A stretch of DNA of 40,482 nucleotides from a virus. A program made the position numbers and the translations under genes. The notes beneath the pieces were generated by a model, which was not told where the DNA came from, did no database searches, and saw only the letters and a list, made by a program, of their open reading frames with translations. Shown here piece by piece: positions 3,301 through 40,312 of the stretch (its first letter is position 1; each line of letters opens with the position of its first letter). Where the stretch lies: positions 1 through 40,482 of the IMG/VR virus record IMGVR_UViG_3300032006_000027, one strand, 5' to 3'.

Positions 3301-3358
3301 CGAGTTTTGAACCCATGAGGTCCGAACCCATTTTTGATATTGCATCAGTAAAACTCAT
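350..3358 (-). CDS. Large baseplate hub-like structural protein (gp27/gpD-like C-terminus)
   Basis: This 1002-residue protein begins MSFTDAISKMGSDLMG and has a hydrophilic, aromatic-rich body without membrane segments. The C-terminal segment, with LDGIEGIRLWDVFSCTGVP followed by LWRVTNIKHSISGTDW and a final strand ending ISAQF, resembles the closing domain of hub proteins of the T4 gp27 / P2 gpD type, where it supports the spike and joins the tube. The neighbourhood (tape measure, tube-junction candidate, LysM-like baseplate protein, all in the same direction with tiny gaps) fits a hub role. It is much longer than T4 gp27 (about 390 residues), so extra domains are fused in. A broader label, virion structural protein, is safe; the gp27 assignment is inference from the C-terminus and position. 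Confidence 0.55.
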   Translation of the reverse strand: MSFTDAISKMGSDLMGSKLGSALGAVGDMVKKAVGEIAPFFEDKAAANEDLMNKQPTWLSATEPTSVGFDDRHRGNYPTMTHIRNFVRAEFLRREQNFGNYYTKSSPWPGEHADHQIGGVEDAGYFDYEAGHSNYRSEMFLSDDYVGSTYKGPKSAWTRVVSNTMKDGFEGFVLHGVDNFEDMYGFNPDLGTDGQSVMGYDTKEKPHIMEEPDFKHRPSPGVTGIDCEDMGPAKAQKKTTIKFTVWSRAQLDYISPYFCTVGNTVLVEWGWNTFPRDALIDLKEKNSPPDTISGEPHHVAMALHQINAVRASHPDRELKPLQRHDLVDGMTYIYREGTGQTGLWNSVSKTKIQLRKGKGNYSFVLGMITNYNYSLRDDGGYDVTVEAMSMSGIAQSLNKTATKVDDTEAKKGDHVLDLENFVNDFLDEIVTEQDEDPDDNSWFDDGYSTPSMQKLVSKHMDNPFSKTSILASQGRYFAFGNTTAALGTDDNKQYMAGSPSDASYITLGWLVDILNVFFGKESEATAAEQFSFHIDEERCVAHPNLKSTDGSVLLIPNAMAPRHNLEQFRGNTIGMAGESGDPGWFSSAQPTEYEEDGLKKKNESESYNILARGKNNPQRDAFIAMVEAMEGLAPGTLGDGEAGLKQAMLKSPRDDIHNLMTLHPHIDGDDNGSYQKGQFEVKAFPDYYVSEDKTFHSNGYSGRIKDLFVNLKVVKDAVKNNQTATSILRTILKKMSQAAGGIWDFDIVGRFPEMPNNTQLTIKDRKFSANTVDEVQRSDKTFIFKAHQKNSIIRSCGVDVSIPGEIAGMVLFGNKSGDADSAFYARKDEDMVLKTAKVLDPSGKTYQKSKNKQGSKKYANEQSYIMGIYVWDGATNAYGNVAVGMSDGNENLSTGDDDEPVIDIEFVDPHPNRMKSLLKHDRNPKNCVKYNMALDGIELSMQLDGIEGIRLWDVFSCTGVPTEYYMNGLWRVTNIKHSISGTDWTTDISAQFAPNSAESISE

Positions 3359-3362
3359 GACA

Positions 3363-3659
3363 CTATACCTTAGAGTTTATTTTGTTGTGGTCAACCAAAA
3401 TCTCTCCAATTGCACGTGGAATTCTTATTTGTGTTCCTGGTTTGACATACATTGAACCTGCGATATTGTTGGCGGCCGCAAGCACCCACCAATGATTTGG
3501 GTTGTCATAAAACTTATATGCCAAATGATCCAACCTTGTTCTTTCCACTATAACCAGATATGTATCTGATGATCTTTGTTTGATACGGGGGAGCAATGTG
3601 GTTCTAAGTGCACCTTTTCCATTTTTAAGCAAATTTAGTTTTGTTGATTTATATCTCAT
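3363..3659 (-). CDS. LysM-like baseplate protein (gp53 / gpX-like)
   Basis: A 98-residue protein. Residues about 36-80 look like a LysM fold: a YLVIVERTRLDHLAYKFYD stretch, then NPNHWWVLAAANNI, then KPGTQIRIP. This order (helix, NP-x-x-WW, then PGT-x-IRIP) is typical of small contractile-tail proteins that carry LysM domains, such as T4 gp53 in the baseplate wedge and P2 gpX. In virions this fold binds other tail proteins rather than cell wall. It starts 18 bases after the stop of the preceding gene and stops four bases before the next ATG. No good Shine-Dalgarno sequence is visible, so translational coupling is likely. Domain call is fairly firm; equivalence to gp53 specifically is inference. 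Confidence 0.65.
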   Translation of the reverse strand: MRYKSTKLNLLKNGKGALRTTLLPRIKQRSSDTYLVIVERTRLDHLAYKFYDNPNHWWVLAAANNIAGSMYVKPGTQIRIPRAIGEILVDHNKINSKV

Positions 3660-20927: not shown

Positions 20928-22358
20928 TTACAGATTGTCTGAATTCGTAACGGAAAGTTTTCCGTAGAATTCTGGACGAACCATCTTCTTGGCATAACGG
21001 GTCATTACACCACGACGTGGAGTAAAGTTGACCGGATCGTATACCAATGGAGTTTGGATTAACGGAACGTATGGAGCATAAACCGCACCTGTTTCAAGGA
21101 AGTTTGCACCTCTGAAACCTACGAGAACGTCACCACTTGTCATGTATGGGTTCTTGTAAACTTGGAAACGATTGTTCAATGCACCAACCTTGGTAACACC
21201 CATTGCGAACTGCGACTGATTTCCATCAGTGTCAGCTGCGTATCCTGGGATACTTTCAAGAACGGTAGCAACAGAAGGAGAACATACGAGGAAGTTTGCA
21301 CCACCACGAAGAGTCAACTGATGAATTGTGTTACTCATCTTTTGAATCTTTGTTCCGAGCTTCTGGAACAATGTTCCTTGAGTCTCACCACCTGCGAGTG
21401 CCGCTGTTGCGTCAAATGCAGCTGCGTCAACCGTACCTGCGTTTTGAAGAAGCATATCAAGAATTTCCAAGTCGATTTCCATTGAAACGTACTCGGAAAG
21501 AAGTGACGTGAGTTCTGCTTCTGCGTCAACACTATGATAAGCATTGAGGTCTTGTGCCAACTCAGGTGTCCAAACTGCCTTCAACTTACGTGTCTTTGCA
21601 ACGATTGGTTCACTCTTAAGTTCCAAGTTAACTTCGGGAATTCCGACGTCTTGGGAACCTGTAACTGCACCTTCGGTAGCATCTTCAGCAGCTTCGAAAT
21701 CACCACGGGTGATGTCTGTTGGAGCTGCATGGTAGTGAAGTGTTCCGGCTGCGGTTGCTTCACCGTCTGCATTAAGTGCGGATACCGCACCATCTGCGTC
21801 TGCAACAACCGTGAAGGCTGCTACGCCGTCAGCGTCACCGTCAGCGGCAACTGCTGTCCAAGCCTGGCCGTCTGCGATAGCAACGGTCTTGTCGTTCAAC
21901 GAGTAACCGTGACGACCTGAACCATAAAGACCACCACTTGCGGCGTCTGTTGACTTGGTTGCACCTGTTCCACCGAAAAGACTTCCACCGGACTGCTGTG
22001 CGGATTGGTTTGTTCCGTACTTGAAGTCTAAGTAGAAAATCAACCCGGATGGGAGATTCATTGGTTGAACCGAAACGAATTCCTTCGCTGCGATTTCAGC
22101 AAACACACGACGTACGAGAGGTAACGCAACACCACTCCACTCTTCCGAGTTTGATGATGTTCCTGTGCGTGACGCTTCGTCAATCAACTGCTTTGCTTGG
22201 TTTTCAAGAAGAACGGCCATACCGCTCTTTTCTGTATCTGTATTGATACCTTCCAAAAGACCTGTCTTTTCCCACTTGGAAACAAGACCACGGGTTTCTG
22301 CCATAAGTCTTTGTTGAGGATTTTGACTGTCTTTCAATAATTTACTGATTTCACTCAT
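20928..22358 (-). CDS. 23: Major capsid protein gp23
   Basis: 476 residues. The propeptide region MSEISKLLKDSQNPQQRLMA leads to SGVALPLVRRVFAEIAAKEF and VSVQPMNLPSGLIFYLDFKY, the T4-type capsid signature. Later NLELKSEPIVAKTRKLKAVW, TPELAQDLNAYHSVDAEAEL and the ending TPRRGVMTRYAKKMVRPEFY are also diagnostic. Prohead protease gp21 cuts after (L/I)-x-E; E52 (VLLE) and E61 (LIDE) are candidate maturation sites, close to E65 in T4. A Gly/Ala/Asp-rich insert fills residues about 158-215. It follows gp22 in the same unit (38-base gap) with AAGGAA upstream and ends at a strong terminator. Confidence 0.95.
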   Translation of the reverse strand: MSEISKLLKDSQNPQQRLMAETRGLVSKWEKTGLLEGINTDTEKSGMAVLLENQAKQLIDEASRTGTSSNSEEWSGVALPLVRRVFAEIAAKEFVSVQPMNLPSGLIFYLDFKYGTNQSAQQSGGSLFGGTGATKSTDAASGGLYGSGRHGYSLNDKTVAIADGQAWTAVAADGDADGVAAFTVVADADGAVSALNADGEATAAGTLHYHAAPTDITRGDFEAAEDATEGAVTGSQDVGIPEVNLELKSEPIVAKTRKLKAVWTPELAQDLNAYHSVDAEAELTSLLSEYVSMEIDLEILDMLLQNAGTVDAAAFDATAALAGGETQGTLFQKLGTKIQKMSNTIHQLTLRGGANFLVCSPSVATVLESIPGYAADTDGNQSQFAMGVTKVGALNNRFQVYKNPYMTSGDVLVGFRGANFLETGAVYAPYVPLIQTPLVYDPVNFTPRRGVMTRYAKKMVRPEFYGKLSVTNSDNL

Positions 22359-23836: not shown

Positions 23837-24472
23837 TTACAATATTTTTTTGTTTCCTTGAATTCTTGCAAGAGTTTCCGATAATGTTGCATTCTTGAAT
23901 TGTCTTGATTCAATTTCTTTAACTTGATAAGTTTTTCCGTCAACCTCAAACTCGTCTTCACCTGCTTCTTTTGCTTTACGAACTGCGTCACCGAATGCGT
24001 TTCCTTCTTCAACTTCTTCTTCAGTTTCATCTTCTTCGGAGTAGCACCCCGATTCTTCTTTCACTTGATAAGTTTTTCCGTCAACCTCAAACTCGTCTTC
24101 ACCCGCTTCCTTTGCTTTTCTTACTGCATCACCGAATGCGTTTCCTTCTTCGACTTCATCGTCTTCTTCACCTGTGAATTCCTCGGTATCTTCTTCTTTG
24201 ATTACTTTTTCTTTTACAGGATAGGTTTTGCCACCCACTTCAAATTCTTCGTCACCGTTTTCACGTGCCTTACGAACTGCGTCACCAAATGCGTTTCCTT
24301 CTTCAATTGCTTCCTCGTCATCTGCATCACCTTCACTTTCTTGCTTTTTAAGTATAGCGGCCTTGAGTGGTTCTGGTAATTTTTCTTGAGCAGCGGTCAA
24401 CCCTTCAAATAATCCAAGTTCAGTTGCGACTTCTTCGATGATTTCCTTAAGTTCTTTTCTTGTAATTTTCAT
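23837..24472 (-). CDS. Hypothetical prohead-cluster protein with three 32-residue repeats
   Basis: 211 residues from the ATG at 24470-24472; this start gives MKITRKELKEIIEEVATEL, a common type of N-terminus in this cluster. The body has three copies of a 32-residue unit, EEGNAFGDAVRKAKEAGEDE then FEVDGKTYQVKE, at residues 57-88, 108-139 and 155-186, separated by acidic linkers. Copies two and three differ at almost no residue. Each unit looks like a small helix-strand fold. It follows the protease cluster and precedes the scaffold. Function unknown; association with the prohead core is inferred from position and N-terminus. Confidence 0.8.
   Translation of the reverse strand: MKITRKELKEIIEEVATELGLFEGLTAAQEKLPEPLKAAILKKQESEGDADDEEAIEEGNAFGDAVRKARENGDEEFEVGGKTYPVKEKVIKEEDTEEFTGEEDDEVEEGNAFGDAVRKAKEAGEDEFEVDGKTYQVKEESGCYSEEDETEEEVEEGNAFGDAVRKAKEAGEDEFEVDGKTYQVKEIESRQFKNATLSETLARIQGNKKIL
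23915..24304 (-). repeat. Three dispersed 96-base coding repeats
   Basis: Units at 24209-24304, 24056-24151 and 23915-24010 encode the EEGNAFGDAVRKAK...FEVDGKTY module. The latter two are close at the DNA level, pointing to recent duplication within the gene. Confidence 0.85.
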
Positions 24473-24488
24473 AATAATACTAATACCT

Positions 24489-25214
24489 TTATTTAATTGG
24501 TAAAAAATGTCTGTGGTCACTCACCATCTTTTGATAGTTTCTAAATAAAATTCCTTTGTTCTCTGGGTCTGCACACGAATCACATACTTCAGTCATCGAT
24601 TCTATGTGCGAATTTAATTCCGAACGAAGTTGTTGTGTAGCAAATCTAGTTTCCGACTCGGATAATTCCAAATCTCCGGCAAACACACACTTTATCCCTT
24701 CGGAAATTAATGTTTCAAGAAATCTGTTGATTTGTTTTGGATCAACCATTCCTTCTAAAATTTTTGCCGAGATGTTTGAGAATATGGGTGTAACTCTAGT
24801 TTCTACAAACGACTCGTTTTGCATCAACTCGTTAACAAACAAAGATACTTGTTCTGAATCCAACTCCTCAAGAACTTGATCATTTTCACCAACCAAACGA
24901 GCAAGTGAATCCTGTGCAGTCATTTCAGACTCCATTAACTCACCATAATACTCGGGGTTTGCACAAAACTCATACACGGATACTTCGTCTGTATAATGCC
25001 CACCGAAACGGGAATCCGTTGAATTGACAAAGTTTAATTCGGACTTAGTTGCATATTCGTTTGCATCAGATATTGTACCTTCACATACAACTTCTCGTTC
25101 ATAACCGGAAAATCCCATAGACTTCTTTACAAATTTACCTTGAATTTCACATGGATATTCAGCAACCTCAAGCAATACTTGAGTTACATATTCTTTTAAT
25201 TCACTTCTTTTCAT
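24489..25214 (-). CDS. Hypothetical prohead-cluster protein
   Basis: 241 residues from the ATG at 25212-25214, preceded by GGGGAA at seven bases; an earlier ATG in the frame has poorer context. It overlaps the stop of the upstream gene by 14 bases. The N-terminus MKRSELKEYVTQVLLEVAE resembles the short targeting helices of neighbours. The body is mixed alpha/beta without membrane segments; residues near the end contain VCDSCADPENKG, a CxxC pair. Family not recognised. Location between protease and scaffold suggests a head or core-associated protein. Confidence 0.75.
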   Translation of the reverse strand: MKRSELKEYVTQVLLEVAEYPCEIQGKFVKKSMGFSGYEREVVCEGTISDANEYATKSELNFVNSTDSRFGGHYTDEVSVYEFCANPEYYGELMESEMTAQDSLARLVGENDQVLEELDSEQVSLFVNELMQNESFVETRVTPIFSNISAKILEGMVDPKQINRFLETLISEGIKCVFAGDLELSESETRFATQQLRSELNSHIESMTEVCDSCADPENKGILFRNYQKMVSDHRHFLPIK

Positions 25215-25662
25215 TTGTGGTTTCCCCTTGTATTTCAAAGTATCTGTTTAAGATATTTCCCATATCTTCGTATAAACCCTGCATACGTTGTGTGTAGACC
25301 TGTCGTTCACTTGCGGTCTTGTAAAATTCCTTTGCAAGAGTTTTAATTTCTTTTAAGTTTCTTTTTACACTCATTGCATCAAACCAATCATCGGTTTCGT
25401 TGAGAATATATTTTGATGCGTTTTCAACGATATTGCATATATCTTCGGCAACATCCATATCTCTTGCTTCAAGTGCGATGTATCGTTGATACTTACCGAA
25501 CTTTGAAATCTTCTCAGATGCAAGTTTCTTTTGATCGGATGACATTCCTTCGTCATCAAATCGTCCAGTCATGGGATTAAATTCGTTGATTTGGTCACGT
25601 TGCTCTTTCGCAACTTCCAAAATACTTTCTTTAATTAGTCGTATAACCTCGTTCTTTTCCAT
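25201..25662 (-). CDS. Hypothetical helical protein downstream of protease gp21
   Basis: 153 residues from the ATG at 25660-25662, one base after the gp21 stop and with GGAGA eight bases upstream. It begins MEKNEVIRLIKESILEVAKE and is predicted nearly all helical, with a conserved-looking segment MTGRFDDEGMSSDQKKLAS. No motif for catalysis. Tight coupling to gp21 and the N-terminal helix suggest a core protein of the prohead; this is inference. Confidence 0.75.
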   Translation of the reverse strand: MEKNEVIRLIKESILEVAKEQRDQINEFNPMTGRFDDEGMSSDQKKLASEKISKFGKYQRYIALEARDMDVAEDICNIVENASKYILNETDDWFDAMSVKRNLKEIKTLAKEFYKTASERQVYTQRMQGLYEDMGNILNRYFEIQGETTNEKK

Positions 25663-25663
25663 A

Positions 25664-26290
25664 TTAAGATTCTCCAACTTCACCTAAAATTTCATGAATG
25701 ATTCCTTCAACCTTACAAAACTTTGAACAAACTCGTCCATCAGTTACAACTTGAGTTGGATCAACCGATTCGTTCAAATTAACTGGTTCAAGAAAAGCAC
25801 CCCTCGTAGAAGGGTTGCTCACAAAGTCAAATGCAACCAATTCAAAATCATCATTTACAAGTGTCTTACCCTCGGATTCTCTTGTAGTCCCCATTCCACG
25901 TGAACTGATTCCAAGTGTGATTCCTGATTTAAATAATTCCTTCAAAATGTTGCCGGCCGGGGTACTCAGAACATGAACTTCACCAACAAGTGCGTCACCG
26001 TCCCACCACATCTTGGATACGTTGTGACTAACGTTCTGTAAATTTACCACCGCACTATCTGGGTGGTCTAGTTCACCGAGTGCTCTTTTGTCATCAATAA
26101 GTTCTTGGTACTTGCCGGCCTCCCTCTCAAGCAAATCACGTGTATAAACACGCCCATTTTGATTTTGCTCCTTTGCTTTTTGAAGAATGCCACGAACCAC
26201 CAAATCTCCTCCATTAGACTCGATGCTTTCCGCAATTTGTTCTCTTGTGAACTCAAAAGGGAGTGTAGACACTATAAGTTGCTTTGCCAT
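25664..26290 (-). CDS. 21: Prohead maturation protease gp21
   Basis: 208 residues, similar to T4 gp21 (212). Family features: GVFI-type sequence QNGRVYTRDLLERE, the catalytic His in RALGELDHPDSA (H76), strand VHVLSTPAGNILKELF, the catalytic Ser in ITLGISSRGMG (S129 or S130), and an acidic residue in ELVAFDFVSNPST. This serine protease lies in the prohead core, cleaves gp22, gp23 and other proteins after (L/I)-x-E, then digests itself. No Shine-Dalgarno site is seen before the ATG; a sigma-70-like sequence ends 11 bases upstream. The T4 order 20-(67,68)-21-22-23 is retained in outline. Confidence 0.93.
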   Translation of the reverse strand: MAKQLIVSTLPFEFTREQIAESIESNGGDLVVRGILQKAKEQNQNGRVYTRDLLEREAGKYQELIDDKRALGELDHPDSAVVNLQNVSHNVSKMWWDGDALVGEVHVLSTPAGNILKELFKSGITLGISSRGMGTTRESEGKTLVNDDFELVAFDFVSNPSTRGAFLEPVNLNESVDPTQVVTDGRVCSKFCKVEGIIHEILGEVGES

Positions 26291-27667: not shown

Positions 27668-28186
27668 TTATCGCAACTCGCGAAGTTTTTCGGAAATTCT
27701 TTGCAACCTAGAATCCAATTTATCCAAGTGTCGTGTGGTTGTCTTCCAATAAGACTTATTACTCACAGAAGTCTCTAACTTAAATTTGGAACTTACCTTT
27801 ACCAACTTTTCCACATCACCCAACATTTTATTAATTTCACGTATAGTAACACCTATCTTTTGACGTGGTGTCATGTCTGGGTGGTCTCTGTATAGATGGT
27901 ATAAACTCTTACCCTCGGCAACGGTGTTGTTTTTTTCGTTCTTGGTTGTTTTAAAGTCAAACACCTCCGCAGTATCTTTTATTGATTCTTCGTGATCTTC
28001 TTCGTCTTTGGAATCAAACGCATACGGGGTTTGATACCCATCAATGTTTCCCGTGGAATTTATTTCAATCACCTCGGGTGGATTGCACTCTTCGCAGTCT
28101 GGATTTTGGCATCCGCATTCTTCGGACAACACTTCACTTAATAAATTGCGAATTAACTCTCTAAGATTTTTTTCAGTTGTTTTCAT
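27668..28186 (-). CDS. Hypothetical Cys-motif protein of the prohead cluster
   Basis: 172 residues from the ATG at 28184-28186; the frame opens with a TTG three codons earlier, rejected. It overlaps the previous stop by 14 bases. The N-terminus MKTTEKNLRELIRNLLSEVL is another short targeting-like helix, followed immediately by EECGCQNPDCEECNPPEV, four Cys spaced as for a metal knuckle. The C-terminal half is helical with a DMTPRQKIGVTIREINKML stretch. Function unknown. Confidence 0.72.
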   Translation of the reverse strand: MKTTEKNLRELIRNLLSEVLSEECGCQNPDCEECNPPEVIEINSTGNIDGYQTPYAFDSKDEEDHEESIKDTAEVFDFKTTKNEKNNTVAEGKSLYHLYRDHPDMTPRQKIGVTIREINKMLGDVEKLVKVSSKFKLETSVSNKSYWKTTTRHLDKLDSRLQRISEKLRELR

Positions 28187-29036
28187 GCTTCTCAAGTTCC
28201 TTTATAAGTTCATATGACATGAGCAAAGTAGAAACTTGTGAATCCTTAACAACTCTACCGTCACTGATAGAATCTAATTGAGAAATAACCTCTCCGAGTT
28301 TTATCTTAACCACTTCGTCATCCACGACTTTATCAGACAATTCACTGATCCGTGATTTCACATTTGGGATTTGTGTATCTATATACTCCCGCAAACTATT
28401 TGTGTTTGAAATATTGTTTATATAGTTTTTAAGAAGTCTTTGTTGATCTTCACTTAGAGTGCTACTATATTTCTCATTAAATTTGTCAACCAAAAGTTTA
28501 TATGTTATCAAACGGAGGTCTTCGTTGTGTTGCTCATAATCTTCGGTGGATTCGTTGGTTTGTGCTTTCTTGCTACATAATCCTTGAAGTATGGTATTTT
28601 TCGATTCGTATAATTCTTTGGCATCGCAATAAATGTCTTCGTTTTCACTTTCAAACAACTTAAAGATACTGGCATATGTTTTATAGTTGCGAATCTTTGA
28701 ACGAAGGAAATCATCAATCGGATATGCACCCTTCATCTCTTTAACCAACTCGTATCGTTGTTGTGCCAACTTTTTAGTATTGAGTTTTTTATGAGACTTA
28801 GCAACTGCATCAATCAACCGCTCCGCATTTCCCGAGTCGTATGCTGACTCTTCCATGAGTAGTTGATACAACCTTTGCTCCTTGCCAAGTGATGCGTCTT
28901 CAGCAAAATATTTACGCATCAAACGGTTGGCATGGGAGTCTTGTTTATCATCAAGAATATCAGCAGTAATTTGCCGAACCAATAGTTCAAACAAAATGCC
29001 AGTATTCTTAAATTTACTATGTTTTAATTTTTTCAC
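28173..29036 (-). CDS. Hypothetical helical protein downstream of portal
   Basis: 287 residues from a GTG codon (29034-29036), giving VKKLKHSKFKNTGILFELLV; no ATG in the frame is near, and the N-terminal sequence GILFELLVRQITADILDDK looks conserved in marine T4-like phages. The protein is almost entirely helical with long charged segments. Two tandem ATATTTAT elements lie 28-48 bases upstream. It follows the portal gene, where T4 carries small core protein genes. No clear Shine-Dalgarno sequence; function unknown. Confidence 0.72.
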   Translation of the reverse strand: MKKLKHSKFKNTGILFELLVRQITADILDDKQDSHANRLMRKYFAEDASLGKEQRLYQLLMEESAYDSGNAERLIDAVAKSHKKLNTKKLAQQRYELVKEMKGAYPIDDFLRSKIRNYKTYASIFKLFESENEDIYCDAKELYESKNTILQGLCSKKAQTNESTEDYEQHNEDLRLITYKLLVDKFNEKYSSTLSEDQQRLLKNYINNISNTNSLREYIDTQIPNVKSRISELSDKVVDDEVVKIKLGEVISQLDSISDGRVVKDSQVSTLLMSYELIKELEKHENN

Positions 29037-31714: not shown

Positions 31715-31722
31715 ATAAATAT
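31715..31722 (-). promoter_or_regulatory. ATATTTAT element upstream of the lipoprotein gene
   Basis: The sense strand reads AAATGATATTTATGTAA; it overlaps the terminase stop region and lies 36 bases before the lipoprotein ATG, so the lipoprotein can be transcribed apart from the terminase. Confidence 0.5.
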
Positions 31723-33320
31723 CATTTCAATAACCAATCCAAACTTTCACTCCCTCCGTGTGGATTTTTCATTTCGTATGGATTGCTTTTTAGTCCAGAC
31801 CTAAGATAAGCATCACCCATATCCAAGTTTGTGGTCGAACCCATGTAATCAAACATTGATTTTTGTGTGTTCATGTTTTCCGACCTAAATCTAAGTGCAG
31901 TATCTCGCACCCATAACGAAATGCATAAACTCATAACCAAGTCATCGGTGTAACCAGGCATTGCTTCTGCTTTCATTCCGTTCCATATAAAAGTAAACAT
32001 TTCCTCAACCGTTCGTTCTGAATTTATCACAAGTTCCTTTTCACGAACATAACTTTCCATTTTACTGATGATGAGGGGGCGAGTCTTAACCGAGGTTGTA
32101 AATCCAGGAACTTGCTTCTTTTCCATGCGATTAAGTTTGTTGGTGTGCTGGGCAAGTTCGTCTACATATTGATAATCTCGTTGAGTATAATATAAATTGC
32201 TATAACCTCTGTCCAATATTTGTTGCAAAACTGCCCAACCAATATTCGCATTTTCCACAACGAGCAATGCACCATTATATTCGTTTGCTACCGCAACGAG
32301 CAGATTTCCGTAATCTTTTGTTTCCATGTCACCACGAAACTCTGCAACTTGAACCAAATTCTCAACGTCAAATACATGAAAAGCACTTTTATCTTTTCCG
32401 TCACCACGTGCAACATCGGCCGCAACAACATAGTCCTTTGAATGATCGGGATATTCCCACAACCAATATTCTTTGTTTATACCACGCTTCTCAAGTGGTT
32501 CTTTCATGCTATTTTCCTTATACCACTCCACTATATCCGCATCAATAACCGAACGACCACTGCTTATGAAGTCACAATCACATTCTTGAGCCGCATCTTT
32601 ATCCCCAAGTAACTTGGTTTGTAAATCTCTCCATTCTTGATCTCTTTCCGGATGTAAATTCCAATGAAGTTTAATTGGATTAAAATCATTTGATCCGTCC
32701 ATAGAACCTACCCATGTCTTATGAAAGAAATTACCAATACCATTCGGGGTCGACAACAATATAGAACGACCACCAGTTGTAATCGTTGATTGTGATGCAG
32801 TCCATATTTCCTCCATGTTCGTAATAAACGCACACTCATCCACAATTAACAAACTCAATGATGACGAACGAGATGCATCCACACTACTTGAAGCCGCACG
32901 AATGGAACTTCCATTCTTAAACCTCATACTGAGTTTATTCTTCTCGGTACATTCACTTCTCAACCAACTTGGTAAAAAGTCCGACATATGAGTTACCTTG
33001 GTAACAATGTTTTTTGCGGTTTCTTGGTTGATTGCAATACAAAGTATAGACTTATCGGTAAAAAAGGTCATTAACCACAAAGCATATCCGGAAACGAGGG
33101 TAGATATTCCCATCTGTCTGGCCTTGAGAACAATATTAAATTGCTCATCTCGGAAACTCTCAAGTGTTTTTTCTTGAAAATTATATAAAGCAAATGGAAT
33201 CGTACCAAGGGTTGGGTGCTGAATCTTGCAGTATTTCTTCATAAAGTATGCAGGTGATTTTAAGCACTCGGCATACTCTTTCTTGATTATTTCTCGTAGT
33301 GGAGGATTGTTATTTGCCAT
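31722..33320 (-). CDS. 17: Terminase large subunit gp17
   Basis: 532 residues (T4: 610). The ATPase half has a Q-motif region ALYNFQEKTLESFRD, a Walker A-like VLKARQMGISTL (residues 65-75), Walker B LSLLIVDECAF (155-165) with the catalytic Glu, and coupling motif SILLSTPNGIGNFFH. The nuclease half starts with the metal-binding Asp in YVVAADVARGDGKDKSAF (D302). This motor packages DNA into the prohead and cuts concatemers. It precedes lipoprotein and portal, whereas in T4 gene 17 precedes 18. An AGAGG abuts the ATG. The small terminase (gp16) is not recognised in the window. Confidence 0.94.
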   Translation of the reverse strand: MANNNPPLREIIKKEYAECLKSPAYFMKKYCKIQHPTLGTIPFALYNFQEKTLESFRDEQFNIVLKARQMGISTLVSGYALWLMTFFTDKSILCIAINQETAKNIVTKVTHMSDFLPSWLRSECTEKNKLSMRFKNGSSIRAASSSVDASRSSSLSLLIVDECAFITNMEEIWTASQSTITTGGRSILLSTPNGIGNFFHKTWVGSMDGSNDFNPIKLHWNLHPERDQEWRDLQTKLLGDKDAAQECDCDFISSGRSVIDADIVEWYKENSMKEPLEKRGINKEYWLWEYPDHSKDYVVAADVARGDGKDKSAFHVFDVENLVQVAEFRGDMETKDYGNLLVAVANEYNGALLVVENANIGWAVLQQILDRGYSNLYYTQRDYQYVDELAQHTNKLNRMEKKQVPGFTTSVKTRPLIISKMESYVREKELVINSERTVEEMFTFIWNGMKAEAMPGYTDDLVMSLCISLWVRDTALRFRSENMNTQKSMFDYMGSTTNLDMGDAYLRSGLKSNPYEMKNPHGGSESLDWLLK

Positions 33321-34052: not shown

Positions 34053-34409
34053 TTACACAACAATCGTGTAAGTTCCCTTCTTTGCTACAAAGTTGGGTTT
34101 TATCATAACAGTCATTACCACAAACATAAGATTATAGGGTGACTTCTCTTGGAGTATTCCAATCAAATTCAATGCACTCTTTTTATCCTTTACATGAATA
34201 TAATCACCCACATCAATTCTATCAAAGACGAGTGCTTTTGTAATATCGGGTATTGCTTTGTCAGCAACCTCCATTATATCCGTTTCGGATATTTGCATAT
34301 GGTCATGCCTTGACTGACGTTCACCTGCGTGTTTAGTCTTGTTTATCTGAACGGAGATATTTACTTTGTCACTTACCGTTCCGATGACTGCATCCATGAG
34401 TTTAATCAT
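34053..34409 (-). CDS. Small hypothetical protein
   Basis: 118 residues, overlapping the end of the upstream gene by eight bases, with AAAGG seven bases before the ATG. It begins MIKLMDAVIGTVSDKVNISV and looks beta-rich, with GDYIHVKDKKSALNLIGIL and a hydrophobic LMFVVMTVMIKPNF strand. No family recognised. Operon position groups it with the basic membrane-containing protein and the Cys-motif protein upstream of the terminase. Confidence 0.7.
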   Translation of the reverse strand: MIKLMDAVIGTVSDKVNISVQINKTKHAGERQSRHDHMQISETDIMEVADKAIPDITKALVFDRIDVGDYIHVKDKKSALNLIGILQEKSPYNLMFVVMTVMIKPNFVAKKGTYTIVV

Positions 34410-35832
34410 ATTTGCCTTTCTTCAAAGCTTTTCTATCATATGCCTTTTTATTTTTCATGGGTCTGCTTTTAGGCATAGTTGGTTTCCGCACCTTTTTGTA
34501 CGCATCCATTCGTGTCATCAACTTTTGCTTTTTTGCTTCCGACAATTTTTGTATTTTGTGGACAAGCATCTTGATGTATTCCTTTTTGCTACCACGACCT
34601 TTAAAGTATGGACTTTTATCACTAAGCATTTTTGCAATATCAAGCATTGCTTTTAATTCTTTTACATCTTCTTCGTTATCTTTGTTTTCGTTCATTTCAA
34701 TCCATCCTGTTTTTGGTACGTGTTGATATCTTTCAAGTTCAACACCCTTTGGAGAAAGTACAAGCAACCACTCACTTCCCTTGGCACGAACCTTTTTAAA
34801 AGTAAACTCAGCATTTGGGTATTCTTTTTTCCAATGTTTCTTAATTTCATTTGCAGTTTTGTATTTAGGTCCAACATACTCGTTTACAGGACCATCTAAT
34901 CTTGTAAACTCCACATAAAATTTACCAGTATCAGATGATTCATATGGTTTTCCTCCCACATTGTCGGTGTGTTTCTTGGCATCACTGCGTGTATCAAATA
35001 CATAAGGTTCTAACTTCCCGTCAACATACCTTGCGGATACCTCTGGTTGAGAACCATCTACACTGAGTGTTAATACTCCGTGCTTGCCTTCTTTTGATTC
35101 TCGTTGGAATCTCTCTGGATCTAATTTTGGATCATATATTCCAAGTGATAATGATATATGATGTTTCATAAGTTGATCAATTATATTGGTGGTTGCGTAC
35201 AAAGATTTCCTTTTATCTAGTCCAGGAATCTCATCTTTTATTTTGATAATCAATTTTGCAAGATGGCCTTTGCCGAACTTCTGATCCTTTATCATTGAAA
35301 AAATACCTGGATACTTTTTCTTAATAAGTTCGTAGGTTTTACCCACATCAAATTTTACACGTCCACTTGAGAATACGGCCGCAAGTTTTTTTGCAAGTGT
35401 TGCAGTTATCGCAACTGCACCTCCCGTGATTCCAACTATTGATGCAATCGTGAGAGGGTCAACTACCTCGGTTAATGGGTTTGGTTTAGATTTGGCACGA
35501 ACTCTTTTAATACGTTCCTTTTCATTTGCTTTTACCCGTGGCATCAACTTCTTTGCAACTCTGGCAATTAATCCGGGTTTCTTGGCAAGTTGTTTTTCAA
35601 TCTTTTCTTTTGCAGTAACTGGTAAATCGGAATACTTCTTTCCACCGGTCATCTTCTTGACAATCAAATTCTTTGCTTGTTTCTGTGCAATTTGTCTAAG
35701 TTGACCTGGGTTCTTTCTTCGTTTCTCTTTCCGTTTCTTGGCAATCATACGTTTCTTTTGCGTACGTTTGGCTGCTCTTGCCATCTTCTTCCGAGTTTCA
35801 CGGGAGATTTTTCTTTCTCCGACGTTATCCAT
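34402..35832 (-). CDS. Basic, membrane-segment-containing protein with K/R-rich N-terminus
   Basis: 476 residues. Residues 1-117 are extremely Lys/Arg-rich (KKMARAAKRTQKKRMIAKKR; then GKKYSDLPVTAKEKIEKQLA; KKLMPRVKANEKERIKRVR). This roughly 100-residue basic module is widespread in marine T4-like phages. A hydrophobic segment follows at 126-148 (PLTIASIVGITGGAVAITAT), then a folded region including VKFDVGKTYELIKKKYPGIF and a beta-rich part. The C-terminus is again basic. ATG overlaps the previous stop by one base, with GAGG upstream. DNA binding or packaging with the genome is an inference from charge; the hydrophobic segment could also mark membrane delivery. Confidence 0.8.
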   Translation of the reverse strand: MDNVGERKISRETRKKMARAAKRTQKKRMIAKKRKEKRRKNPGQLRQIAQKQAKNLIVKKMTGGKKYSDLPVTAKEKIEKQLAKKPGLIARVAKKLMPRVKANEKERIKRVRAKSKPNPLTEVVDPLTIASIVGITGGAVAITATLAKKLAAVFSSGRVKFDVGKTYELIKKKYPGIFSMIKDQKFGKGHLAKLIIKIKDEIPGLDKRKSLYATTNIIDQLMKHHISLSLGIYDPKLDPERFQRESKEGKHGVLTLSVDGSQPEVSARYVDGKLEPYVFDTRSDAKKHTDNVGGKPYESSDTGKFYVEFTRLDGPVNEYVGPKYKTANEIKKHWKKEYPNAEFTFKKVRAKGSEWLLVLSPKGVELERYQHVPKTGWIEMNENKDNEEDVKELKAMLDIAKMLSDKSPYFKGRGSKKEYIKMLVHKIQKLSEAKKQKLMTRMDAYKKVRKPTMPKSRPMKNKKAYDRKALKKGKYD

Positions 35833-38357
35833 CAGAACCTCATTATCCCCATAATTTGATTTATGGGTGCAAATGTTCCAGTTAACTTATATGTTCCACC
35901 TTTGTACTGAAATACAATACCCTCACTTGGGGCAATCGCATCCGCACCTCCGATGTCATTCAACTTTTTCAAATTCTTTTGAAGTTTTTCCATGTCCTTC
36001 TTAAACTTTTCAGGAGACTCCACGGAACTAAGTTTTTTCTTTTCCAAAGTTTTTACATGGTCATTCAATGCCTTTGCAATATCATCACTTCCTCCTGCGG
36101 CCACAAACCCACGAACATTTTGAAGTACTTCCGCACCTAGTTTCAAAAAGATAAATTGAAATGGCCACATATTTGCTTCAAACTGCTTTACTATATCTTC
36201 TTTTTCAAATTTGTTTACCCATGCAAGTAGTTTGGGTTGATTCGACAAGTCCATGCGTATCGTTGTAATCTTATTTGATTTATCGTTATATGCCCAACGA
36301 CCTATAAGTGCTTCATAAACATTTGATGGAAATACTTCTTTTAATTTGCTTTGTTGTTTGTCTAAGAGATTTCTCCACCATGCATCGTGATACTTCATAA
36401 CCTTATCATTATCTTTTAACTTAAATTCTTTTTTAAGTTTATTAATCATGTTAGTATACTTTTCAAGTGAATCACTAAATGTTTTGCTCTTGGGAAGTTC
36501 TACCACAATCGGAGCATTCAACGAATATCGTTTCTGAACATTGGCATTTATTTGACGAAGCATTCCTTCTAAAGACCTCGCAGAATCTTTAAGTTCACTT
36601 GTGATGTCATTTCCCTCGGCATCTTCAAAAACTGGTTTACCCGCAGAGTCGTATGCTTGAGTTCCATGAAATACTAACATATCAACATTTTGTGGAATAA
36701 CATTTTGAGTGGCAGGTGTCATTACCTCAATGTTCATAAATCGTTCACCTTCTTTAAATACCTTACTCTTTTGAGCATCACTTAACTTTGAAATTGCAGA
36801 TTCCAAATCTGTGACCGCACTTACGAACGCATCACGAATATTCTCTGCACGATCCGCAAAAATATCTTCAAACTCGGATACATTGGGTGCGGCTGCTCCT
36901 GCGTTCTTTAGATGCCCTTGGTTTCTTGCTACTACAAGTTCACCGTTCTTCCAACTAAACATCAAATTTTGACCATCAAGTTTCTCGGTTACGTCTTTTT
37001 CAACACTCAACTCACCTGCCAATGATCTGCGAATTAGTTCTTTTAAATCTGCAAAAGTCAAATCCCTATCATCAAACGGATGACTCATGTGACCGGCCGC
37101 GCCACCTTCCGTTAGCAAAGTGGTTTCATTGATTGCATGACCCTCAACCCCCTTATCAATTTCCTTTTCACCATCCTCTGTTTTTTTGGAATCAATCGTA
37201 TGACCACCACTCAAGTCTTCATCACCCTGTTCGTCATTCTTACGAATGGAGGTCTCAGACCCAATGAAGTCAACAAGTTTGTATCCTGCGGTTTCTGCAA
37301 CTCCCTCAATAAAAGACACCCATTGTGAATGTGCCTTTGAAGTTTCTTCGGTATTTATTTGATTTGTTGGTGAACCTACATCAAAATTTCCAGATGGGTA
37401 AAAGGATACCGCAGGAACTGGACCGGCATAATTTCCCCACTCTCTGTAATCTGCGTTTCTCCCTAGTCCGTTTTTGCCGACCACAAAGTCCAATAAATCA
37501 TAACCAAGTTGCTTTGCTCTATTTGTGGTATGAGATTCGTATGACGTACCGGGATAATATCCAGCAGGACCATCGTCCACCATTGCCTTGCCCATTCCCA
37601 TAACGGTACTTATCTCATTTAAAAGTTGTGGAAATGAATCAACAAGTTTTTCAAACTTAGGGTATTCTTGTAAGAAACCTTCAAAAATTTCTTCGTTTTC
37701 AAACAAAGTACTAAACTTCTTTTTCAAATACACATAAATCTTTTCGTCATACCAACCGAACAATTGCTCAAATGCTTCTACCCTCTGTGCATCTGTATAT
37801 TTTGGGCTACCAAGAAGTTCACGAATATATGTTCCGTTTACTTCCTTTCCAAGAACCTTGATGCTCACATGAGGAGCAACAATAAAATATCCGTGCTTGG
37901 CATACGGCTCTAACTTGTTTTTGTGCTTTGCATATGACTGATAATATCCAGGTGTTCCATCAACCTTTTTTGTTTTCAATCGTCCCGCATCTTTCGCACC
38001 AAATATATAAACAACCGCAGTTGTCTCTGGATCATAATTCTCAAGTAACTCTTCACATACATAGGGGTTTTTGACTTGAACAACATTCTTTACTTTGTGC
38101 TTTGTCCATATCATTTTCTTTTCTTTAAAATTCAATGGACTTTTGGTTGCATCTGTTTTGTTACTAGTTGCAACCCATGCTTCATCAAATTGCTTATCCA
38201 ACCACTTGTATGTTTTGTAGTGGTGCAATCCAGCAGGTTGAAATCTACCTGGATAAATTCCAATCACCTTTGTAATTTTGGGTGCTTCCGTCAGCAAATC
38301 ACCTAGCATATACTTGGTGAGATCACCTACATAAGACTCTGTGTTGTTATCGGTCAT
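35832..38357 (-). CDS. Fusion: nucleotidyltransferase (NMNAT-like) domain plus RNA-ligase-like adenylation domain
   Basis: 841 residues. N-terminal domain (about 28-185): IGIYPGRFQPAGLHHYKTY fits the GxFxPxHxxH signature of nucleotidylyltransferases such as NMN adenylyltransferase, and VNGTYIRELL (173-182) fits the closing S/G-T-x-IR motif. A middle domain (about 250-370) has MGKAMVDDGPAGYY and PAVSFYPSG. C-terminal domain (about 415-841): TEKLDGQNLMF with K459 as the candidate nucleotide-accepting Lys (motif I), NIEVMTP near 542-548 (motif III-like), EGIVF at 812-816 (motif IV) and YKLTG with K824 (motif V). This is the covalent nucleotidyltransferase layout of RNA/DNA ligases. The start abuts the previous stop directly. 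Substrates are unknown; NAD synthesis and RNA repair are the natural suggestions. Confidence 0.82.
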   Translation of the reverse strand: MTDNNTESYVGDLTKYMLGDLLTEAPKITKVIGIYPGRFQPAGLHHYKTYKWLDKQFDEAWVATSNKTDATKSPLNFKEKKMIWTKHKVKNVVQVKNPYVCEELLENYDPETTAVVYIFGAKDAGRLKTKKVDGTPGYYQSYAKHKNKLEPYAKHGYFIVAPHVSIKVLGKEVNGTYIRELLGSPKYTDAQRVEAFEQLFGWYDEKIYVYLKKKFSTLFENEEIFEGFLQEYPKFEKLVDSFPQLLNEISTVMGMGKAMVDDGPAGYYPGTSYESHTTNRAKQLGYDLLDFVVGKNGLGRNADYREWGNYAGPVPAVSFYPSGNFDVGSPTNQINTEETSKAHSQWVSFIEGVAETAGYKLVDFIGSETSIRKNDEQGDEDLSGGHTIDSKKTEDGEKEIDKGVEGHAINETTLLTEGGAAGHMSHPFDDRDLTFADLKELIRRSLAGELSVEKDVTEKLDGQNLMFSWKNGELVVARNQGHLKNAGAAAPNVSEFEDIFADRAENIRDAFVSAVTDLESAISKLSDAQKSKVFKEGERFMNIEVMTPATQNVIPQNVDMLVFHGTQAYDSAGKPVFEDAEGNDITSELKDSARSLEGMLRQINANVQKRYSLNAPIVVELPKSKTFSDSLEKYTNMINKLKKEFKLKDNDKVMKYHDAWWRNLLDKQQSKLKEVFPSNVYEALIGRWAYNDKSNKITTIRMDLSNQPKLLAWVNKFEKEDIVKQFEANMWPFQFIFLKLGAEVLQNVRGFVAAGGSDDIAKALNDHVKTLEKKKLSSVESPEKFKKDMEKLQKNLKKLNDIGGADAIAPSEGIVFQYKGGTYKLTGTFAPINQIMGIMRF

Positions 38358-38882
38358 TTACTTTTCAAGCAATTCAGACAAAATTGCGCGGATTTGCTTT
38401 CTAAGTTTTTGCTCATGTACTTTGCTGGCCACAAATCTACTGAAATCACCTTGGGACATTCCACCTAGTGTGTCTGCCATTTCGTCGAATCCTTTTCTTT
38501 GCAAAAATCTAATTACTTTGTCTTTTGCCTTCAGAATACTTGAATGCAACCCTGACATAAAATCCAGTGCCTTCTTGTATTCCTTTCCTGTTACTTTAAT
38601 TTCATTTGTTTTTTTCATTTTTGATTCCTCGTATTGAGACATATAAAAATCTTCATCCTGAGCAGCTGCTTGAAAATCTCTCCATGCTTGTTCTGCTTCT
38701 TTTCCAACCAGTATCACTTTACCCTTTGGATAATAAAGTATTTCATCACCCTTCTTGAACTTAACACCACCCTTACGCATTCTGCGTTGAACTGGTAATC
38801 TTTGCTCACCAGAAACTCCATCGTATTTTGATTTCATCCAAAACGGATCATCTTTATATTTGTTGTATTCGTTTACTTTCAT
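38358..38882 (-). CDS. Hypothetical protein
   Basis: 174 residues from ATG at 38880-38882, one base after the preceding stop, with GGAAGA upstream; the frame is open further but would overlap the upstream gene deeply. It begins MKVNEYNKYKDDPFWMKSKY and has GVKFKKGDEILYYPKGKVIL, a small SH3-like strand pattern, then EQAWRDFQAAAQDEDFYMSQ. The C-terminal half is helical with KKALDFMSGLHSSILKAKDK. No catalytic motif. It is coupled to the ligase fusion gene. Confidence 0.75.
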   Translation of the reverse strand: MKVNEYNKYKDDPFWMKSKYDGVSGEQRLPVQRRMRKGGVKFKKGDEILYYPKGKVILVGKEAEQAWRDFQAAAQDEDFYMSQYEESKMKKTNEIKVTGKEYKKALDFMSGLHSSILKAKDKVIRFLQRKGFDEMADTLGGMSQGDFSRFVASKVHEQKLRKQIRAILSELLEK

Positions 38883-38883
38883 T

Positions 38884-39234
38884 TTAATCTTCCAAGTATT
38901 CTTCGACTTTTCCTGTTTTAATATGACGTTTGCAGGCCTTCTTTTTATCTCGGTGCATATGTGGTGCTTTGTCAAGATATTCTTGTGTGCAATGAAATAT
39001 ATACCCATCTACTACTGGACCTTCACTCGTTTCACCTTCACTATACGCACCAATAAACTTAAACTCTTCTTTTTCTTTTTTCACAAGTTTTGTTGCCAAC
39101 AATCTTGCCCATCGTTCATTTCCCGACTTGTTTGACGAAAAACTATAAGGAGCATGATTGGGAGCCATTTCAAGTTTCCAAGTTTCACCCAACTTGTCCT
39201 CTGCAATCAATTCATCTAGAATGGTATCAAACAC
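38884..39234 (-). CDS. Small hypothetical protein, GTG start
   Basis: 116 residues from a GTG at 39232-39234 that shares one base with the kinase TAG stop; a good AAGGAG lies seven bases upstream, which decides the start. It begins VFDTILDELIAEDKLGETWK and contains NERWARLLATKLVKKEKEEF and a C-terminal His/Lys/Arg cluster (KAPHMHRDKKKACKRHIKTG). No family recognised; operon position links it to the kinase and ligase-fusion genes. Confidence 0.72.
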   Translation of the reverse strand: MFDTILDELIAEDKLGETWKLEMAPNHAPYSFSSNKSGNERWARLLATKLVKKEKEEFKFIGAYSEGETSEGPVVDGYIFHCTQEYLDKAPHMHRDKKKACKRHIKTGKVEEYLED

Positions 39235-40277
39235 TATCGATCTCCTTTGAATTTCAAGGTTCTAATTTGGTGAAAATATTTATTGAGTTGGTTTTTGTCC
39301 AATTCTAAACTATCAACAATACGAGCAAGAACTGCAAGATTTCTTCTTTCATTTAAGTTAAACTTATTGATTACATAAATAGAACGACTGAGATGCCTCT
39401 CCAGATCCATTGGCAATACCACATCCTCTATGATATCCATATCGAGGTCTTCGGTCACGCGATTGCGTTTATCACCACTTTTGGTCATCTTGTCGTGCTT
39501 CATCATCAAACTAATCCACTCTTTTCCAATTGGGTTGCGAATAGGTTGACCAACGAACCTTGCAACTGCTTTTAATATAAACGGAGAAAGATCAAGTTTG
39601 CCTGGTTTGGTCTTGCTACGAGTATCTTCGGTGTTGTCCACAATAATAAAGTTTCTTTTAAACACACCTTGAAACTTGCCAAGGTTTTTTTGCACATCTG
39701 TCCATACGTCTTTGACAATCTTCCGCGGAAGTTTTCTTGCACGAAATGCATTTCTTTCTTGTGCGACTTTCAATGTAGTATTAACGAATACCATATAACA
39801 ATCGTACCCAAGTTCCTCAAGTTCTTTCTTCTGCTTAATTATCTTGGAATAGTCATCCCCAGTTCCGTCAACAATAACACCAAGCCTTCCATTCTTATAG
39901 TGTTCAAATTGTTTGAGCATAATATTTTTGGCACGGGAGCGAATTGAATTTGGGTCATCACTCGTAATTTGATTAAATACTTCATCATCCAACGAACCCA
40001 AATCCAAACTATGACCCGCCCTCTTCAGCAAGTGTTCAAATGAACTATCACTATTGACAATCTTCAACCCACTTGACGATAGTGACTTTGAGGATGGTGC
40101 TACATTAAATATGGTATCAACCGTTGCCGATTTACCGGAACCAGGGCCACCTGCAAGAAATACTGCTTTCAAAATACCTGGATCGTATACACCCTCAACT
40201 AGAGTAAAATAACCCTTTCGGAGACCTGCTTGAATTAGAGTTTCTTCAAGTTCTTGCTTTTTGTCGGAATTTTCCAT
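39234..40277 (-). CDS. P-loop kinase / zeta-toxin-like or polynucleotide-kinase-like protein
   Basis: 347 residues from ATG at 40275-40277 (AAGGA 11 bases upstream); the frame is open to a TTG eight codons earlier, rejected. Walker A is AVFLAGGPGSGKSATV (residues 38-53). LGVIVDGTGDDY (133-142) gives the strand with the substrate-side acidic residue, followed by KELEELGYDCYMVFVNTTLK and QERNAFRARKLPRKIVKDVW, an Arg-bearing lid-like helix. This order is that of small-molecule or nucleic-acid kinases including zeta toxins and T4-type polynucleotide kinases. No phosphatase domain is present. Three genes downstream lies a ligase-like protein, so a 5'-end kinase is attractive, but the substrate is not visible in the sequence. 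Confidence 0.8.
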   Translation of the reverse strand: MENSDKKQELEETLIQAGLRKGYFTLVEGVYDPGILKAVFLAGGPGSGKSATVDTIFNVAPSSKSLSSSGLKIVNSDSSFEHLLKRAGHSLDLGSLDDEVFNQITSDDPNSIRSRAKNIMLKQFEHYKNGRLGVIVDGTGDDYSKIIKQKKELEELGYDCYMVFVNTTLKVAQERNAFRARKLPRKIVKDVWTDVQKNLGKFQGVFKRNFIIVDNTEDTRSKTKPGKLDLSPFILKAVARFVGQPIRNPIGKEWISLMMKHDKMTKSGDKRNRVTEDLDMDIIEDVVLPMDLERHLSRSIYVINKFNLNERRNLAVLARIVDSLELDKNQLNKYFHQIRTLKFKGDR

Positions 40278-40300
40278 AGATACAAACGTCCTTAGATACA

Positions 40301-40312
40301 ATAAATATATAT
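40301..40312 (-). promoter_or_regulatory. ATATTTAT promoter-like element upstream of the kinase gene
   Basis: The sense strand reads ATTTAGATATATATTTATTG, sharing 18 bases with the element before gp22. It lies 24 bases before the chosen ATG in a 45-base gap. Confidence 0.6.

Follow-up and report, generated by a model that had tools for sequence, protein, structure and literature searches.

An NMNAT-like and RNA-ligase-like fusion protein of T4-like phages with prohead-protease-type sites at its module borders

What does a phage gain from having an NMNAT-like and an RNA-ligase-like enzyme in one protein? The question is raised by a gene at 35832..38357 of a viral contig of 40,482 bases (IMG/VR record IMGVR_UViG_3300032006_000027), which we analyzed at its full length and call the window; coordinates written with two dots lie on its minus strand. 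The contig belongs to a T4-like phage, with terminase, portal, gp21-type protease and major head protein all encoded on the same strand. The gene is an intact open reading frame with an ATG start and without stops, and its 841 residues comprise a leader followed by NMNAT-like, middle and ligase-like modules. A sequence-only reading had proposed that the fusion couples the supply of nicotinamide adenine dinucleotide (NAD) to ligation, or makes or removes NAD-type RNA caps. There is no direct support for either idea. With moderate confidence, we favor a head-packaged enzyme set that is released by protease and most likely serves RNA end repair at entry.

Protease-type sites at the module borders

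The leader (residues 1–24, 38286..38357) ends in DLLTE24↓AP (arrows mark predicted cuts) and is a predicted capsid-targeting sequence with a first prohead-protease site. Two more sites in the window protein, LLNE248↓IS and LLTE417↓GG, close the NMNAT-like and middle modules. The T4 gp21 prohead protease uses sites of this type, in which (L/I)xE precedes A, G or S. The predicted processing enzyme, a gp21-type head maturation protease, is encoded at 25664..26290 (phrog_207, E 9e-53), and a gp21-like protease was present in all 17 relatives' records searched. Cutting at the three sites would yield products of 24, 224, 169 and 424 residues.

Sites of this kind recur across the family. The leader ends in [LIVF]xE at most 12 residues before the NMNAT domain in 47 of 50 non-redundant relatives (for example MNLGYEIIEDLIAE↓A), and E248 was invariant in an alignment of 34 sequences. 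We counted [LI]xE[AGS] in the 50 relatives, separating linkers from NMNAT and ligase cores and taking the expectation from shuffling. The linkers (25,116 residues) contained 134 sites against 41 expected (standard deviation 6), whereas the cores (28,945 residues) contained 2 against 36 expected (standard deviation 6). Among 14 P1 residues tried, only E gave this linker-rich, core-poor pattern. Terminase, which is not a prohead component, served as a control and had 33 sites against 28 expected; portal, itself a prohead component, was low, with 16 against 34. As read from the sequence, the architecture is one of modules bordered by prohead-protease-type sites, a feature that the earlier account did not contain. 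With predicted sites between them, the enzymes are probably not fused when active.

The enzyme modules and their family

The fusion itself, as first proposed, is real: the reading frame is intact, motif residues are invariant and relatives occur in other viral contigs. Because more than 30 of these contigs carry relatives at 57–100% identity across most or all of the length, it is not a chance joining; contigs with close relatives number more than 40 in all. Profile searches of viral contigs, IMG/VR included, with the NMNAT-like and ligase-like parts gave at least 600 candidate stretches each, at least 583 of them confirmed, whereas ~85,000 bacterial and archaeal genomes gave only nine loci, all on contigs of metagenome-assembled genomes (MAGs), the two on long contigs lying amid phage-type genes. 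The family is therefore essentially viral, and a cellular origin was rejected. It is common in aquatic T4-like phages, the fusion being maintained across marine, Microcystis and rumen phages. Its members range from ~640 to 1628 residues, with extra modules that precede or separate the core ones.

The NMNAT-like module (HIGH superfamily; residues 25–248, 37614..38285) matches Pfam CTP_transf_like at the cut-off over residues 30–222. In an AlphaFold2 (AF2) model, residues 30–220 adopt a Rossmann-like nucleotidyltransferase fold with a predicted local distance difference test (pLDDT) score of ~80–90. A Foldseek comparison of the residue 30–222 model with the PDB placed NadM first (E 2.4e-4), followed by NadD and PPAT (TMt ~0.65 for PPAT), and a profile search of PDB sequences gave marginal HIGH-superfamily matches. 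As modeled, residues 30–222 are a HIGH-superfamily adenylyltransferase. Of the signature residues listed by the sequence-only reading, all were there: GRFQP (residues 37–41), TYIRE, KLDG (459–462), EGIVF (812–816) and K824. The canonical (H/T)xGH of NMNAT, however, reads GLHH in the nucleotide-binding motif GRFQPAGLHH (residues 37–46, 38220..38249), which leaves the NMNAT-like half with an incomplete signature. Among 57 non-redundant relatives, 50 have GxHH and 6 have HxGH; the second His is always present. The ISxTxxR-type motif is kept as VNGTYIR, with N for S (residues 173–179, 37821..37841; (V)NGTYIRE at residues 174–180), most relatives having a VSGTxxR type. The 34-sequence alignment was invariant at G37–P41, H46, G175, T176, R179, K459, D461, G462, E544, E812, G813 and K824.

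The RNA-ligase-like module (residues 418–841, 35835..37106), modeled alone with AF2, reached a pLDDT of 87.8 and a predicted template modeling score of 0.82. Foldseek ranks 1–44 against the PDB were RNA/DNA ligases, mRNA guanylyltransferases or complexes containing them, with T4 Rnl1 first (E 0.021). The ligase motifs I (KxDG), III (E), IV (EGxVx) and V (K) are represented by KLDG (36972..36983), with K459 as the predicted nucleotidyl-lysine, E544, EGIVF (35910..35924) and K824 within YKLTG (35886..35888); none of K459, D461, G462, E544, E812, G813 and K824 varies among 57 sequences, the most distant at ~36% identity. Pfam RNA_ligase (PF09414) was the commonest weak match (35 of 57 members, best E 0.0033), the window member scoring 14.5 bits against a cut-off of 27, and a profile search of PDB sequences with this part gave no match. 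On motifs, AF2 model and a fold comparison that reaches only E 0.021, residues 418–841 are most probably a ligase-type nucleotidyltransferase. The proposal of two nucleotidyltransferase-type enzymes in one polypeptide is backed by sequence, invariant residues and fold comparison.

The middle module (residues 249–417, 37107..37613), delimited by alignment and containing VDDGP and PAVSFYPSG, had been called undescribed, in agreement with our finding no Pfam family and no PDB sequence match, profile search included. A phmmer search of the PDB with the whole 841-residue protein also gave no match, and the whole-protein AF2 model was poor in its middle and C-terminal parts. Structure prediction, suggested earlier as a check, gave good models of the NMNAT-like part and of the ligase alone and a poor one of the middle. 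This module is missing in Microcystis phage Mel-JY01, where NMNAT and ligase are still fused, and in a further type of relative (L045).

Neighbors, variants and known relatives

The fusion gene lies in a conserved late neighborhood, the order kinase, fusion, terminase and portal being kept, with other genes in between, in ~39 of 43 loci. The kinase gene (39234..40301) encodes a Zeta_toxin/AAA_33-type P-loop kinase (best Pfam match Zeta_toxin, 1e-10; phrog polynucleotide kinase, 2e-4) whose leader ends FTLVE↓GVYDPGI. It is free in the window and fused N-terminally to the NMNAT module in other phages; whether free or fused, all 17 untruncated kinases have [LIVFT]xE↓G directly before the P-loop domain. 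Between kinase and fusion lie a small gene with a leader-like start, FDTILDELIAE↓D (38884..39234), and the gene directly upstream of the fusion (38358..38882), each in 39 of 43 loci. The gene directly downstream (34402..35832; phrog_23027; 40 of 43 loci) encodes a basic N-terminus and overlaps the fusion by one base. Beyond it is the T4-like terminase large subunit (31722..33320; phrog_2, E 4e-48), and the N-terminal region of the major head protein (20928..22358; phrog_138, E 9e-82) contains LLE↓G and LLE↓N motifs.

Other window proteins carry similar segments. The product of 23837–24520 has a leader ending LFE↓G and then a GNAFGDAVRKAKEAGEDEFEVDGKTYQVKE-type repeat in three copies, every copy with VEE or IEE↓G in front of it; by its sequence, it is probably another internal head protein. 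The N-termini encoded at 24489–25238, 25201–25683 and 27668–28195 are short amphipathic segments of the type MKxxELKxxIxxxLxE, and the C-terminus of 38358–38882, LRKQIRAILSE, is akin to them. All of these look like capsid-targeting sequences.

Relatives vary the set of modules. One protein of 1590 residues (contig L208, 3619–8391) has a CCA-adding-type PolyA_pol head, RNA-binding domains, NMNAT and ligase; in another (L193), DUF6267 replaces the usual ligase beside a segment that, read by eye from the sequence, is polymerase-beta-like. Further relatives carry an additional small beta domain. An extra GKNRDRNY module, without Pfam match and Ntn-hydrolase-like by eye, occurs in L013 (4076–5110) and as the N-terminal half of L079 and L117.

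Three contigs (L165, L169 and L173) offer a natural experiment, because their ligase is split. The catalytic-lysine piece, covering the first 58–60 profile positions, is a separate open reading frame of 80–82 residues whose leader ends LLNE↓GG or LLLE↓GG, and the remaining ligase ends the large protein, starting with GKLIAARN after LMSE↓, LLSE↓ or LIKE↓. The newly made border thus has a protease-type site. In L165 the pieces lie at 417–2648 and 3260–3502, the lysine piece ~600 bases downstream of the C-terminal one, and L169 and L173 are arranged likewise. An intron was rejected: there was no Rfam match, the intervening sequence is a conserved neighbor gene, and the N-terminal ligase piece lies downstream of that neighbor. 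This is therefore a split and rearranged ligase gene. Elsewhere, a rumen contig (L222) has a stand-alone ligase with the leader MKSLIQYISE beside protease and head genes, and neighboring genes start MKSIREYINE, MKSINAYITE and MKSLKQFINE. In the NMNAT-ligase fusion of L221, the junction MSLRDYVFEHLIN resembles the leader MISLKDYAFKKLFIN of the immediately preceding gene.

Cultured phages have comparable genes. Cyanophages, pelagiphage HTVC008M and Methylophilales phage Melnitz carry an NMNAT-like gene close to a gene for DUF6267 (PF19782), a family of unknown function with the ligase-superfamily motifs KWDG, EGxV and KLV (KLVxR), as in L209 (6302–7534) and L213 (3839–4759). We found 529 phage records with the NMNAT-like gene and 469 with DUF6267, mostly from the same host groups. 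DUF6267 and the fusion-family ligase were mutually exclusive in the records tested, and a single common ligase family was rejected, since no homology between the two was detectable. In HTVC008M, genes for ligase-like, small beta, kinase and NMNAT proteins are consecutive, the same parts that are fused elsewhere.

Cyanophage NMNAT-like proteins start with capsid-targeting-type leaders (MKKFSTFISE↓A, MKSFTSFFTE↓A, MKKFSAFLSE↓A), and such proteins were detected in virions of S-SM1 (T4-GC190; PMC3037559), S-CREM2 (PMC10665884) and S-SCSM1 (PMC9602691), with NMNAT-like virion proteins also reported for S-CBWM1 and S-SZBM1. Detection was by mass spectrometry, which shows presence, not cutting. The cyanophage pair of the 'cytitidyltransferase' (T4-GC190) and DUF6267 resembles the window protein in pairing an NMNAT-like with a ligase-like partner and in its MKKFSTFISE↓A-type leader, and its presence in virions matches what is predicted for the window protein; it differs in that the genes are separate and the ligase is not detectably homologous. 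In Agrobacterium phage Atu_ph07 (L211), the homologous kinase is gp53 by count of annotated genes, inside the cluster of coding sequences (CDS) 31–76, from which 29 proteins were found in virions (PMC6102473), a finding on the cluster and not on gp53 itself. Within L211 (2196–7596), several adjacent proteins start MRWEQLTE or MKWNDLNE and have YRGM segments that are ADP-ribosyltransferase-like by eye; one of this type is joined to the homologous kinase after VTE↓G, where Pfam finds the kinase and no ADP-ribosyltransferase domain.

The closest known model for delivery is T4 itself, in which a 10-residue leader ending in such a hydrophobic-x-E site suffices to have a protein packaged and injected (PMC9026906). 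Alt and the internal head proteins of T4, which are packaged, injected effectors (PMC9026906), share with the window protein, likened to them from its sequence, the short leader, a gp21-type protease in the same genome and late gene position. Their cargo, however, is an ADP-ribosyltransferase or small basic proteins, whereas the window protein has serial enzymes with intervening sites and an NMNAT/ligase cargo. Polyvalent proteins, as described in the portions of PMC5512222 used here, are likewise large and multidomain, with disparate activities, a place near late genes and predicted DNA-coupled injection; the fusion family too combines several disparate enzyme domains per protein with a late or virion gene neighborhood. 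Unlike them, it has modules parted by prohead-protease-type sites. Those portions report no RNA-ligase, NMNAT-like or kinase repair set, and neither they nor the corresponding portions of later surveys (PMC7824862, PMC9503650) describe an NMNAT-ligase member.

What the enzymes may do

Recurrent partners of the modules (kinase, CCA-adding-type polymerase and other nucleotidyltransferases) point to the repair of nucleic-acid ends. A parallel is offered by T4 Rnl1/Rnl2 together with polynucleotide kinase, which combine a kinase with a ligase that has KxDG, the motif III Glu, EGxVF and the motif V Lys, and some fusion members add a CCA-adding-type domain. The window protein differs in its predicted virion delivery, a ~200-residue helical insert between ligase motifs IIIa and IV, and its extra NMNAT-like and middle modules.

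We propose that the T4-like phage would load a modular precursor into its prohead, carried there by the capsid-targeting-type leader. The gp21-type protease would then cut after (L/I)xE at residues 24, 248 and 417. Three of the products, the NMNAT-like adenylyltransferase, a small protein from the middle and the RNA-ligase-like enzyme (residues 418–841), would be ejected together with the phage DNA. The neighboring P-loop kinase would be processed likewise and join this pre-made end-repair set. Our best guess for the substrate is tRNA or RNA cut by host defense nucleases: the kinase would heal the ends, the ligase would adenylylate and seal them through K459, and the NMNAT-like enzyme would transfer adenosine monophosphate to some partner molecule. 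Packaging, cutting and injection in the window phage are, on this sequence evidence, very probable. The odds of an RNA end-repair role are slightly better than even, in view of the repeated co-occurrence of modules of the kinase, CCA-adding-type polymerase and RNA-ligase-like kinds.

Several points weigh against this proposal. Virion packaging in the fusion's own lineage is predicted from sequence; the cyanophage proteins seen in virions are only distant kin of the window's (hhalign probability 14%, E 0.0019), and both the S-CREM2 (PMC10665884) and the S-SCSM1 (PMC9602691) studies caution that co-purification is possible. Of 46 scorable relatives, 32 have E at site 3, 13 have M (LLLM↓GG) and one has C, so that a cut there is not universal. 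The ligase fold matches never fall below E 0.001 (best E 0.021), the kinase family is also the zeta-toxin family, and none of the genes scanned was recognized as an RNA 3'-phosphatase.

An injected NMNAT-like enzyme could instead restore or raise NAD+ early, against NAD-depleting defense or for takeover, with the ligase-like module acting separately or joining DNA. NadM is the nearest fold, one active-site His survives along with the ISxTxxR-type motif, and cyanophage proteome authors have proposed an NAD role (PMC10665884, PMC9602691). We nevertheless consider it unlikely, given GxHH in place of HxGH in 50 of 57 relatives and a conserved partner that is ligase-like, neither Nudix nor NAMPT. 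NadM and NadR also join a HIGH-superfamily adenylyltransferase to a second enzyme, which is a Nudix or riboside kinase, and in phage NAD salvage they stand with NAMPT (in the portions of PMC7824862 and PMC9503650 used here); the window family, unlike these, has a ligase-like partner, the altered HxGH and no NAMPT-type gene in 15 phage records of 74–190 kb (14 from IMG/VR, possibly fragments, and one complete genome). A rumen MAG genome alone gave a match in that search, and an NAD-salvage operon was rejected.

The altered NMNAT signature, the missing NAMPT gene and the protease sites that part the enzymes also speak against the coupling of NAD supply to ligation and against the making or removal of NAD caps. 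If the fusion acted inside the infected cell as a single uncut enzyme whose two domains couple dinucleotide synthesis to ligation, NAD-cap chemistry included, its retention in marine, Microcystis and rumen phages would fit. This reading is very improbable, however, with protease-type sites enriched in linkers and purged from enzyme cores, both enzyme kinds encoded by separate adjacent genes in cyanophages and pelagiphages, and the ligase split in one lineage. Least probable is a role in prohead structure or scaffolding, with the enzyme folds as relics: the late gene cluster adjoining terminase and portal and the altered HxGH would fit, but the ligase catalytic motifs are invariant to ~36% identity, and a second ligase-like family, DUF6267, occupies the same place with motifs of its own.

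Returning to packaged, protease-released enzymes, we suggest a fuller version tentatively, holding it somewhat less likely than its negation: the capsids of marine T4-like phages may hold a complete, ready RNA (tRNA) repair line. It would consist of a kinase, a polymerase that rebuilds ends, a ligase and an NMNAT-derived enzyme with a new specificity, all synthesized as a single precursor from which the prohead protease releases them; defense-RNase damage would then be reversed before viral gene expression. The predicted cut products are directly accessible to proteomics. If true, the proposal would give a context to DUF6267 and to the NMNAT-like proteins repeatedly seen, unexplained, in cyanophage virions. 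The phage enzymes known to be injected are mainly RNA polymerases, ADP-ribosyltransferases and anti-restriction proteins; with a protease-released cargo of RNA ligase, NMNAT-like enzyme and kinase, 'repair at entry' would become one of the strategies of phages.

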